DNA from: Isoetes taiwanensis
Taxonomy: Eukaryota > Streptophyta > Lycopodiopsida > Isoetales > Isoetaceae
Assembly: GCA_021234155.1 (NCBI GenBank)
Contig: JAJEKV010000114.1
Coordinates: 186,001 to 250,000 of the forward strand
Length of the DNA: 64,000 nucleotides
Direction of reading: 5' to 3'
The first letter of the stretch is position 1. Each line of letters opens with the position of its first letter. Shown here one piece after another: positions 52,606-56,519 of the stretch. The position numbers and the translations under genes are program-made. The notes under the pieces are model-generated. The model was given only the letters and a program-made list of their open reading frames with translations, made no database searches and was not told where the DNA came from.

Positions 52606-53338
52606 TAAAAAAGAGGTACAAAAATGGAAGCTCATGGTTTTTGCCTGTGGATTTTGAATCACTCACGCAAATTTTTTTGATGAGAACTCTGCCTGGTCTG
52701 GAGTATTTTCTTGCGGATTCATGGCAGGCTGATTTCGGTGGACCTCTGCCTTTATTTCTAATGAGCCTGCGGGCATGATCAATCCTTAAGATCCTTTCGT
52801 TACCATCCAATTTCAAAGCAAATTTTTTATTTCCCATTTAGCTTGCAAATAAGAAGGACGTGCCCTCAGTATATTTAATCGGCCTTTTTCATCTACATCA
52901 TTTATCTTCCTCTCATATACCTGGATCTTTCTTGAACCCACCAAAAAGTCCTGTATTTCTGCGCCTGGATTTGAAAGGGGCATTTTCTTGATGCTACCAG
53001 AACTGCTTGCAAGCAAGATGCTACCATGGGGAAGCAAGTATGATAGTTAATGTGTTGCAAATTAATGAATGCCGAACAATTCGAACCTGGAGGTCGATCC
53101 ATTACCAAATTCGTTGGGGTAAGGTTCGGATTAGGATTTAAAACATAGTTCAATGAATGCCTTATGATTCAAAGAATGGTTTGAAGAATGCATTAGAATT
53201 CTGGATGCAGCCAAAGAGTTCCCAGCTTCACGGATGAGCCATCGAAGCACATTCAAGAAAGTCTAATACAGGGCAAATGCAAGGTTGCAGTCTGATCACA
53301 GTTTTTTGCTCACGCTAAGCGTGTTTTTGGAAGGGGTA
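52606..53338. other. No recognised gene
   Basis: Minus-strand ORFs of 74-83 codons (52,592-53,153) have no motif. They might be 5' sequences of something lost. Confidence 0.4.
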
Positions 53339-53443
53339 ATTTTGTTGACCCGGAAATTTCTCCCTGAAATTTCCTGGCGGCCGCCAGCTGACCTGGCGGG
53401 CCGCGAGGGAAATTTCAGGGAGAAATTTCCGGGTCAACAAAAT
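53339..53443. repeat. Perfect hairpin, 36-base arms
   Basis: Arms at 53,339-53,374 and 53,408-53,443 are exact reverse complements over 36 bases, with a 33-base GC-rich loop (GGCGGCCGCCAGC). Each arm itself contains a smaller palindrome, GGAAATTT with AAATTTCC seven bases away. It is placed just before the left inverted repeat of the recombinase element. Confidence 0.97.
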
Positions 53444-53450
53444 TTCCCGA

Positions 53451-56400
53451 CGAAATTCTAACTAACCTGGAATTTCTTCGACCAGGAGTGACGTGTCAGC
53501 TGACGTGGCGCTGAGGTGGCAAGAACAAGAAAATTCCCCTGTTTCAGACATTTCTTCCCTTTTCCGCTTACGGCAGCGCAAATCTGCGTTGCCGGATGCA
53601 TTTTTGAGCTATTTTTGCCGGAGTTTTGCTGCTTTTTAGTGTTTCCATAGTTCTATAGTGCCTCTACCTTGCTAGCGCCATCATTTCTTGCCTTTTTTTC
53701 GTGCATTTTCGGCTGGGGTAAGTTTCTTGAAGTTTCTTGCTACATTCTTGCTCTGGAGCCTTTTTGATATGCTTTTTCCAATGATATGGCGAGTTCATTG
53801 AAGTATTTTGCGATCTGAGCTTGCTTCCAGGTAAATTTCTTATGATATTTATGTTCTTTTGTTGATTTGTGTTGAGTTTTTCGCTGATTTAGGTTATTTT
53901 TATCTGTAGATCTCGTGGAGGACTGCTAGGACTCAAAAGGTTTGGAGCAGCAGTACAGTATGACTCAAATGCATTTGAAACTTGCTTCTTTTCTTATCTA
54001 CTTTTGTTTATTTAGCATGGACGGCTTAGAAAGCGCAGTAGATGTTCCAGAGCCATCATTTGGCCTGAATATTACGCAAGAATTGGGCATGCATGATGTT
54101 GATGCCTTGGATGATGGTTTTTCTAACCTTGATAAGCTGATTACTGAGTTTCAAGGTCCAGAACTTGAGAACTTCGCTCAAGAAATAGAGGAGAGTTCCT
54201 GGTTCCATGAACAGCAAGTTTCTAATGATAAGGACGAATTTATCCCTCTAGATCTTGATCTGGTCAAGGAAGCAGAAGGAGGAGGAAGAGATGCATCTGC
54301 AAAGCTAACTATTTGGGCTAGACGGCGGTTTGATTCATGGAGGGCTGCCTTTAATCATGACTGCTCAATACCATTGGAGGATGTTCCACCCAAAGAACTG
54401 GCTGTGATGCTAATGAAGTTTATCCTACAAGTCAAGAAGAAGAATGGACAAGTCTATCCGCCGGGAAGGTATGATCTTACCTTTCTTTTGTTTTTACATG
54501 CATTTTTTTTTCTAACTTGTGTAATTTATTTATGCAGTCTCAGTGTTCTTTATAGAACATTTGGCAGGATTTTAAGGAAGAAACAGGAAAAAAGAGTATG
54601 TGAGAGTGGAATTGAAGAACCTCCTTTCAACATTTTAAAGGCTGATGTATTCAAAAAGAGTACGTATGCATTTGTCATTGCTGTTAGAAGATCCAGACTT
54701 CTTAGAGCAGCAGGGAAGAAAAAGAAAGCACCTACAATTCCTTTTGGTGTAGAACAGGACATTCTAGCAGATGTTGATCACCAAGTTTTTCATCCTAGGG
54801 GAGTACAAAAGAGGCTGTGTTTTTACATATGCTCCAGGTTTGGTATTAGAGCTTGAAAAGAATTATGGGATTTGAAAGTGTATCAGTTTTCACTAGGAAC
54901 TAGTGAGCATGGTGAATTTGTTAAATATGATGAAGCAATGAGTAAAAACAACCAGCCTTCTGTTATACGCTTTGAAGATCATCACTTTAGAGCTCAAGTG
55001 TGGAGTTATGAAGAGGATTTCGTGTTTACATACAAGCAGTATAGTAGACATTTACCTGCAAGACAATTTAATGATGCTGATAAGACCGACGGTGCTTTGT
55101 TCCTGACACCAATTGACAGTTGGACGACTAATGTAAGTTATGTATTTTGTGCTTCAATTTTTGTTTCTTTTGTTATATCAGATCTAATCTGTAGTTGTTT
55201 CAGGTCTGGTACCATAAACAGAGAGTAGGGACGAATACCATAACTAAGTGGCTAAAAGTGATGGGAGATACCGTAAATGCTGATATCTGCAATAAATCTG
55301 GCCGAGTAACACTAGTTTCAAGATTATCTTTGGCTGGCGTACCAGCAGAAGTTGGGATGAAAATTACTGGGCACAAGACATTTGATGCATTTAAACAGTA
55401 AGTATTTTGTTTAATTTATGTGCTTTATTGTTTTAATGGTTAATGCTGATGTTTTTTAATGATATTTTTAGGTATGATAGAAGCACCGAAGTGCAGGTTG
55501 ATGCTGCTATGGCCATACTTGCGCAGCCTGTTAATGACGATGGAACATGTCGTGTGTATTCATCAGTGCTTAATGATCAGATGGACAAAAAGAGAAAAGC
55601 TGAAATTGGGGTTATGGAAAATAGAAAGCAACATTGTCTTCGTCCCACGACACAGGTTAGTTATTAAAGATTGTTTGATTCCATTGCTGTATTTTTTTTT
55701 TTATGTTCTACATCGATATTCTGTTGTTGAAACAGCAAGTTGCTGATAGCGGCTTAGTTGTAAATGCATCTACAAGTGGTAGTGGTATTGCTGCAAATCA
55801 ACGTGGCATAAATGAACAGGTTAGTAGTTAGATTGAAGTTATTTTTTGGTTTTTCTATTTCTACAAGTTTTCATTTGATGCATTTCCACAGGCGAATACT
55901 ATTTCCACAGGTCACTTCATGCCAATGACAGTAGGAGGCGCAGATAAGGAAAATATTGCGCCATTAGCCCAAGAATACCTTGATTTCATTGACAATGATG
56001 TTGTAGATAAATTGATGGCATCAGATCCAATTGCACGAAAAGCTTTAATAGGTGGAAATTTCAATGTCACGAAAGGAAACAGCTTGACAAATACAGGTGG
56101 TCAGAGTTTTATGGGCGCAACATTTTCAGGTTGTGTTTTTCTTAGTTGTGGAAATCCTACTGAAGCTGCCAATGTCCTGGGACAGTTGAATTTGAACAAG
56201 AATTCAGAAACTTGAGTATCAGAAACTTTGTATGTGAACTTTGTTTGGATCAGAAACTTGAGTTTTCTGTATCAGAACTTGATGCTGATCAGACTTGATG
56301 TTTTTTGTATGAAACTTGATGTTTTTGATCAGAACTTGATCAATTTTGGACCAGAAATTCTGCTGAATTACTGTGTTGTAAATTGCTGTGTAAATTGTTT

Positions 56401-56519
56401 TGTATCAACGTGTAAATTTGTGTGTAAATCACCTCACAATCAACAGACAATGAACACAAAATTATAGTTTGTAAAAAAAGGGTGTTTAGGGGTGAAATTC
56501 CAGGGTGGTTAGAATTTCG
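53451..56519 (+). mobile_element. Candidate Crypton-like element with inverted ends, about 3.1 kb
   Basis: CGAAATTCTAAC-TAA-CCTGGAATTTC (53,451-53,476) and its inverted counterpart at 56,494-56,519 match at 24 of 26 positions and enclose the tyrosine recombinase gene. Similarity stops abruptly on both sides of the pair. No target-site duplication is apparent. Classical Cryptons lack inverted repeats and make no duplication, so the repeats may be recombination sites, subterminal signals or the true ends. Confidence 0.6.
54017..56215 (+). pseudogene. Crypton-type (DUF3504-like) tyrosine recombinase, six exons, one stop
   Basis: Predicted exons are 54,017-54,468, 54,538-55,132, 55,204-55,397, 55,472-55,655, 55,736-55,819 and 55,892-56,215, all with GT-AG borders and consistent phase (about 610 codons). 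An upstream in-frame ATG at 53,942 is less likely, because a TTTAG acceptor lies just before 54,017. The acidic N-terminus is followed by WARRRFDSWRAAF and KELAVMLMKFILQVKKKNG, then YPPGSLSVLYRTF across intron 1, as in Crypton and ZMYM/QRICH1-type DUF3504 proteins. The catalytic part shows FGIRA, FLTPIDSWTTN, WYHKQRVGTNTITKWLK, NKSGRVTL, then ITGHKTFDAFKQYDRST with the presumed His and Tyr. Lysine replaces His in H-x-x-R. The only break is TGA at 54,854-54,856, possibly CGA to TGA. Its product would excise and insert the element through a tyrosine-linked intermediate. Confidence 0.8.

Follow-up and report, generated by a model that had tools for sequence, protein, structure and literature searches.

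Two groups of mobile elements come closest to the elements described here. Cryptons (CryptonF, S, A and I) have no coding capacity beyond a DUF3504-type tyrosine recombinase (YR). According to the available text of two sources, they have direct repeats of 4-6 bp and no terminal inverted repeats (TIRs) (PMC3212892, PMC8969392). The former, as far as its accessible portion goes, describes neither TIRs nor long direct repeats in Cryptons, found no terminal repeats in the animal elements, and reports that DUF3504 is matched by Crypton YRs and not by those of DIRS or Ngaro elements (PMC3212892). The hallmark of DIRS1-like elements, in the portion of the source available, is a set of terminal inverted repeats combined with two adjoining internal complementary regions, without a target-site duplication (PMC3266345). 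DUF3504 is also found in host genes, described in the accessible text of PMC3212892 as conserved in animals, with the catalytic tyrosine or active site lost.

For plants, the available text of PMC11397423 states that no Crypton is known. In the accessible parts of two other papers, automated annotations list "Crypton" in plants (PMC8729191, PMC10722297), and because such labels exist we do not claim a first occurrence in plants. A figure legend in PMC3212892 reads "Plants: CR = Chlamydomonas reinhardtii"; the element meant is not visible in the available part of that paper. Searches of one open-access library (apparently without Repbase reports) brought up no characterised land-plant Crypton, and the term "Crypton" is absent from the main text of the I. 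taiwanensis (PMC8566536) and I. sinensis genome papers.

The window, a stretch of 64,000 nucleotides from the lycophyte Isoetes taiwanensis, contains the element summarized in Table 1 (copy W). We are confident that W is one defective copy of a Crypton-like YR DNA transposon family in the nuclear genome of this lycophyte. We read the family as a Crypton variant with DIRS-like ends, not a plain member, and its layout is new relative to described Cryptons. As in Cryptons, a DUF3504-type YR is all that the elements encode; they have a short direct-repeat-like core at both ends (here TTWYG/TTTCG), lack a DDE-type duplication and have given rise to non-autonomous derivatives. Unlike Cryptons as described, they have TIRs and a left-end hairpin, and they reside in a land plant.

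Table 1. Features of the window copy (W), in window coordinates
Feature	Position	Strand	Evidence
Whole transposon copy, 3,191 bp, subfamily 1	53329..56519	+	Homology limits between copies, empty sites
Left junction: target TTTTT plus G common with the element (consensus TTWYG)	53324..53329	+	18 insertions compared; empty site L056
Outer spacer GGAAGGGGT, 8 nt plus shared G; start of left end, overlapping first bases of arm A	53329..53337	+	
Outer hairpin arm A	53334..53374	+	Inverted repeat I1, 98% complementary; fold z -15; covariation
Hairpin loop	53375..53407	+	Similar loops in opposite orientation in L004, L010
Inner hairpin arm A'	53408..53448	+	Inverted repeat, covariation
Inner spacer, 6 nt, from A' to left TIR	53445..53450	+	Spacer comparison
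Left terminal inverted repeat B	53451..53476	+	I2, 92% complementary; junction comparison
Exon 1, N-terminal part up to YPPGS	54017..54468	+	Spliced reading frame
Exon 2, core region with FGIR arginine, contains TGA	54538..55132	+	Spliced reading frame, motif comparison
In-frame TGA	54854..54856	+	Only stop interrupting 610 codons
Exon 3, NKSGR and TGH motifs	55204..55397	+	Spliced reading frame, motif comparison
Exon 4, starts with putative catalytic tyrosine codon (YDRS, 55473-55475)	55472..55655	+	Spliced frame, motif comparison
Exon 5	55736..55819	+	Spliced reading frame
Exon 6, natural stop included	55892..56215	+	Spliced reading frame
Right terminal inverted repeat B', terminal AATTTCG	56494..56519	+	Inverted repeat, copy comparison

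The recombinase gene of W has six exons, 610 codons and five GT-AG introns of 69-80 nt. A sequence-only reading of this DNA had proposed such a gene, of about 610 codons with one TGA, and had quoted the motifs YPPGS, GTNTITKW, GHKTFDAF and YDRST; the gene structure, the stop and all four motifs of the W protein are indeed in the sequence. The TGA is common to copy L002, and a sense codon takes its place in the other spliced models except L021, which has a frameshift there. FGIR, an invariant SK, NKSGR, TGH and YDRS recur in the different subfamilies, exceptions such as the TGR of L024 being few, and we take them to be the putative YR active site, an assignment based on their spacing. The R, R, H and Y motifs, likewise assigned by motif spacing, are found in most members, with the first H of HxxR being K (NKSGR).

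From these motifs and from profile matches, the W protein is a predicted YR of the DUF3504/Crypton kind, in agreement with the sequence-only reading. The Pfam DUF3504 profile matched six of seven family members (E up to 1; best E 4.7e-4, below the Pfam cut-off), and the phage-type integrase profile phrog_1 matched five of the seven (best E 1.4e-6), spanning residues 354-445 in the member shown, which is the NKSGR-TGH-YDRS region. One member of this set, L068, is truncated before that region. For the W protein taken singly, the DUF3504 profile did give a match, but a weak one (E 4.7e-4, 20.7 bits) under the cut-off of 29.7; no Pfam match in W's family reached its gathering cut-off. QRICH1 gave weak matches in five of the seven members (best E 0.016), and the transposase C-terminal domain THAP9_C matched two of the seven recombinase proteins (best E 0.1); apart from the latter, no reverse transcriptase or DDE transposase was found in the seven. 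PDB sequence searches returned no match for two profiles and two at E 0.2 for a single protein only. Structure prediction from the exon translations was too poor to use (pLDDT 37), and a scan of viral contigs and prokaryote genomes found no relatives.

When the whole genome was searched with the DUF3504 profile, W's family was not picked up, whereas two loci outside it scored above the cut-off. These two loci, L060 (C31:88000-93500) and L061 (C606:40200-45700), represent a second, distinct DUF3504 family; they pass the Pfam cut-off at 33.4 and 31 bits and have stops in the matched frames.

W's own family is large. We searched the assembly (G000; 1,658,258,908 bases in 1,110 contigs) for the further copies that the sequence-only reading had proposed to look for. 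With exon-2 DNA, all 40 scored places matched, at 71 to 100% (100 candidates, so that the count is a lower bound), and the protein search gave at least 165 exon-level matches (73 scored of 2,941 candidates). Most copies that we read fall into five subfamilies; L068/L069 and L073-L077 represent further ones. Full-length copies of the five subfamilies are 3.0-3.6 kb long and contain one spliced gene. Subfamily 1, to which W belongs, is small: its inner junction pattern occurs eight times at up to 2 mismatches, against once for the control. Two copies, L009 (1.37 kb) and L010 (1.19 kb), kept both ends and, of the gene, only the start of exon 1; they are non-autonomous deletion derivatives. L009 also has an additional partial left end internally. 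At L072 (C1034:32109700-32117500), about 8.4 kb lie between subfamily-1 left and right ends, either a nested insertion or cargo, with no frame longer than 148 aa in the 7.8 kb read. L003 and L007 (C1095) have flanks in common, as do L004 and L018/L057 (C342), which points to segmental duplications and not to separate insertions. That the DNA comes from a land plant, as had been supposed, is supported by the LEAFY SAM domain, which has four matches in G000, two of them on contigs with transposon copies (C907, C1034), and none in 14 control genomes.

We generated 22 spliced models by alignment to a relative, in which some small introns are possibly artefacts. Among them, L027, L062 and L070 have neither a stop nor a frameshift, with the start of L070 unsettled. 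L024 is open as far as its natural stop; its start was not found, and its exon 3 reads TGR for the family's TGH. The models of the different subfamilies agree in the positions of introns 1-3, and this recurrence argues that the elements do not move via spliced RNA. We computed dN/dS on exon 2 for 16 pairs, of which five were saturated in dS and the remainder ranged from 0.033 to 0.55. Pairs of intact or almost intact copies from subfamilies other than that of W gave ratios of 0.03-0.14. Individual values among the unsaturated pairs were 0.036 for L027/L024 (dS 1.6), 0.093 for L068/L069, 0.14 for L070/L071 and 0.22 for L022/L023. Pairs such as L027/L024 and L070/L071 suggest purifying selection on the recombinase. 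The values of 0.47-0.55 in two pairs with L004 are distorted by the L004 frameshift.

W itself shares a 903-bp identical run (54,200-55,102, with the TGA inside) with L002, which lies at a different locus, and its 3' end (56129-56519) is just 77-83% like L002. By this comparison, W is a mosaic copy. The presence of stop-bearing copies at two sites may reflect movement in trans or conversion between copies; since the TGA lies within the identical run, it could have been passed on by gene conversion, with no need for movement in trans. The sequence-only reading had called the copy "recent or recently selected", which was only half right: the TGA is shared with L002 at another site, the copy is mosaic, and its dN/dS against the near relative L003 is 0.435, compared with 0.03-0.14 for the intact or almost intact pairs from other subfamilies.

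Comparison of copies placed the left end of the element at 53,329 (GGAAGGGGTAATTTT) and its right end at 56,519 (..TTAGAATTTCG). The extent proposed earlier, 53,451-56,519, had therefore to be corrected by 122 bp on the left. Its limits are the outer bases of the 26-bp inverted repeat, which is 92% complementary, and just left of this repeat lies a palindrome with 41-nt arms that belongs to the element by the same comparison. The sequence-only reading had named neither the repeat nor the palindrome.

In order to read the insertion sites, we joined the 80-base flanks of nine insertions and searched them against the genome. Empty counterparts were obtained for six of the nine (W, L003, L010, L013, L024 and L027); L002 and L009 had no empty site in the genome, and L004 had just a second filled copy (C342). 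Of 25 listed places that span a junction, 19 were fetched and read. Each empty site consists of the left flank, one base and the right flank. The base is G in 18 of the 19 loci and A in the remaining one, the diverged repeat L056 that matches the W insertion, which was read by eye, the script alignment having broken off. Two of the 19 loci have 3 further bases beside the site. Beyond the one shared base, a target-site duplication is absent (19 empty loci, six insertions), and a single shared base with no fixed-length duplication argues against insertion by a DDE (TIR) transposon. The pattern fits YR-type exchange at a short core and not the DDE transposase mode.

In a comparison of 18 insertions, the bases at the left junction are T (16), T (16), T/A (16), T/C (16) and G (18). 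This target consensus, TTWYG, resembles the right end of the element, TTTCG or a near form. The junction G is also the first element base in 12 copies of subfamilies 1-3 and hence little informative there; in the six copies from subfamilies 4 and 5, the flank ends with it. The left junction of L010 contains a C in place of the T seen in each of its five empty loci that were read, a difference that may stem from exchange inside the core or from mutation.

The left end of the element has the order A - loop - A' - B, and the right end consists of B'. B and B' are 0.78-0.96 identical in all 18 copies. In a comparison of seven copies, they fit better within a copy than across subfamilies, except in L021, whose B is marginally closer to the right ends of two subfamily-3 copies than to its own (0.86 versus 0.83). 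The circle junction (B' followed by A) is 0.73-0.86 identical to the reverse complement of A' followed by B in 14 of 18 copies, and 0.58-0.65 in L002, L009, L021 and L022. For five representatives, 300 random windows each gave means of 0.44-0.46; the random maximum for L070 was 0.83, probably from a window hitting the site itself. L021 equals its random maximum and is no better than random, and L002, L009 and L022 are weak. The segment A'-B repeats, in inverted orientation, the junction at which the two ends would meet in a circle, an arrangement also seen in DIRS retrotransposons. Between subfamilies 4 and 5 on one side and 1-3 on the other, junction identity is only 0.44-0.57, and cross-matches among subfamilies 1, 4 and 5 (0.44-0.53) are near random; the layout is still kept, in four subfamilies with differing terminal sequences and in non-autonomous copies.

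The spacers differ between the two sites. The outer spacer between the half-sites is 8 nt long in all 16 comparable copies, with one further G, common with the target, in subfamilies 1 and 3. The inner spacer is 6 nt in 15 of the 16, and 5 nt in L009; both subfamily-2 copies were not comparable. We rejected a model in which the circle and inner junctions are equal and the loop flips, since the constant 8-nt spacer at the outer arm means that the two sites are not interchangeable.

Computed as single-stranded DNA, the W hairpin has a folding energy of -61.8 kcal/mol (z -15.4); the L063 hairpin, with one unpaired T, has z -13.1. Covariation was assessed in 15 copies out of 18, which gave 11 distinct rows, after L002, L021 and L022 had been dropped for their broken hairpins; L014, L019, L020 and L062 were not in the set. 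Pairing was kept in 94.9% of cells and 17 of 23 pairs had changed on both sides, neither of which was reached in 500 shuffles, a control that is inflated by related sequences; slid versions paired at 57% at most. The number of further pair types was reached by 2 of 500 shuffles. Covariation in a palindrome can also arise from arm-to-arm copying, without the folded strand having a function.

The loops of W, L013 and L014 are similar to those of L004 and L010 in the opposite orientation. For W against L010, the local score is 28 inverted and 12 direct, which may reflect a true inversion or a deletion from a longer palindrome; L024 is mixed. We also considered the reverse-complement 5-nt loops of L027 and L063 as proof of recombinase action; the longer hairpin of L062, however, accounts for both through different deletions.

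Based on these features, we propose that the recombinase would join the right end (..TTTCG) to the left end to form a circle, whose junction would recombine with a TTWYG target, so that the left side would end up with bases of the target and the right side with bases of the element. Intact copies would move in trans those that lack a functional gene, such as W and the deletion derivatives. The palindromic left end may serve as a built-in splint for joining the ends, a reading to which we would give somewhat less than an even chance. In a single strand, A would pair with A' and B' with B. Because A' and B are neighbours, both ends would meet opposite one continuous strand and create the recombinase site; that the two arm pairs abut suggests such a splint.

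Integron attC and CTX-phage single-strand sites are palindromic, vary in sequence while pairing is kept, and have an unpaired base near the exchange. These sites are bacterial, and the Isoetes ends resemble them in the layout of the sequence. By this analogy, the internal complementary regions might serve recombination of a folded single strand and not reverse transcription: the stems A/A' and B/B' would abut and bring the ends together, the conserved extra T of the outer arm and the 8- versus 6-nt spacers would choose the strand as in attC, and Cryptons and DIRS elements would be structurally linked through this family. We regard this wider proposal as doubtful, and somewhat less probable than the splint itself.

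A conventional Crypton that uses only a double-stranded circle has about the same likelihood as the splint. The palindrome would then be a second, inverted recombinase-binding site (an accessory site) or a by-product, with no folding step. All integration features need the B'-A junction alone, and the inner spacer of 6 instead of 8 nt is what a binding or decoy site would be expected to have. Palindromes also form and delete easily; among the copies, similar loops are found in either orientation and a number of hairpins have been damaged. Against this, four subfamilies with otherwise dissimilar junctions have retained both the A-loop-A'-B layout and the difference in spacer length, and so have the non-autonomous copies.

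The combination of TIRs with two adjoining internal complementary regions that match both ends could instead indicate descent from a DIRS1-like retrotransposon, by decay or loss of autonomy, with the recombinase alone being kept; this combination is the DIRS1 hallmark in the accessible part of PMC3266345. We consider such an origin improbable, although the lack of a target-site duplication is likewise common to both. DIRS1-like elements have a reverse transcriptase, RNase H and methyltransferase, none of which was found in the scanned Isoetes proteins or frames. The longest non-gene frame in five elements (W, L022, L027, L070 and L067) is 149 aa, and the 10 scanned of 33 other frames of at least 70 aa, mostly outside the gene, contained no reverse transcriptase or DDE transposase and gave weak unrelated matches only. 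In five subfamilies, a single spliced gene fills full-length copies of 3.0-3.6 kb, and their spliceosomal introns are kept, unlike in DIRS1-like elements. The complementary regions lie at the left end here, as opposed to the 3' end in DIRS1-like elements, and a match to DUF3504 is, according to the available text of PMC3212892, a property of Crypton YRs that those of DIRS and Ngaro elements lack.

The sequence-only reading had suggested a host-like or domesticated single gene, a very improbable explanation that the many introns and the purifying selection between subfamilies would favour. It is refuted for W, which belongs to a mobile, multi-copy family with defined ends, deletion derivatives and empty sites, and which has a stop. 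Domesticated DUF3504 genes (KCTD1, ZMYM2-4, QRICH1 and WOC) contain the same YR-derived domain and have lost the active site, whereas the Isoetes family keeps the motifs; the loss of the tyrosine in such host genes is described in the accessible portion of PMC3212892. Contamination by fungal or other non-plant DNA is the least probable explanation of all: the published assembly came from plants raised under non-axenic conditions, as stated in the available part of PMC8566536, but the copies are spread over many large contigs, among them C1034 and C907, whose LEAFY matches make contamination unlikely, and insertion-target sequences recur element-free elsewhere in the assembly.

The genome of this land plant thus contains a diverse Crypton-like set, in which some copies are open-reading and near-identical and in which ends and insertion sites could be read from empty loci. 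The ends are unlike those of described Cryptons and like the DIRS layout, and they bear on the origin of DIRS elements and on how Cryptons move, both of which are, to our knowledge, open questions. If the single-strand proposal is true, one strand would be peeled out while the donor copy stays, which would account for the multiplication of Cryptons. The copies are ready substrates for testing.
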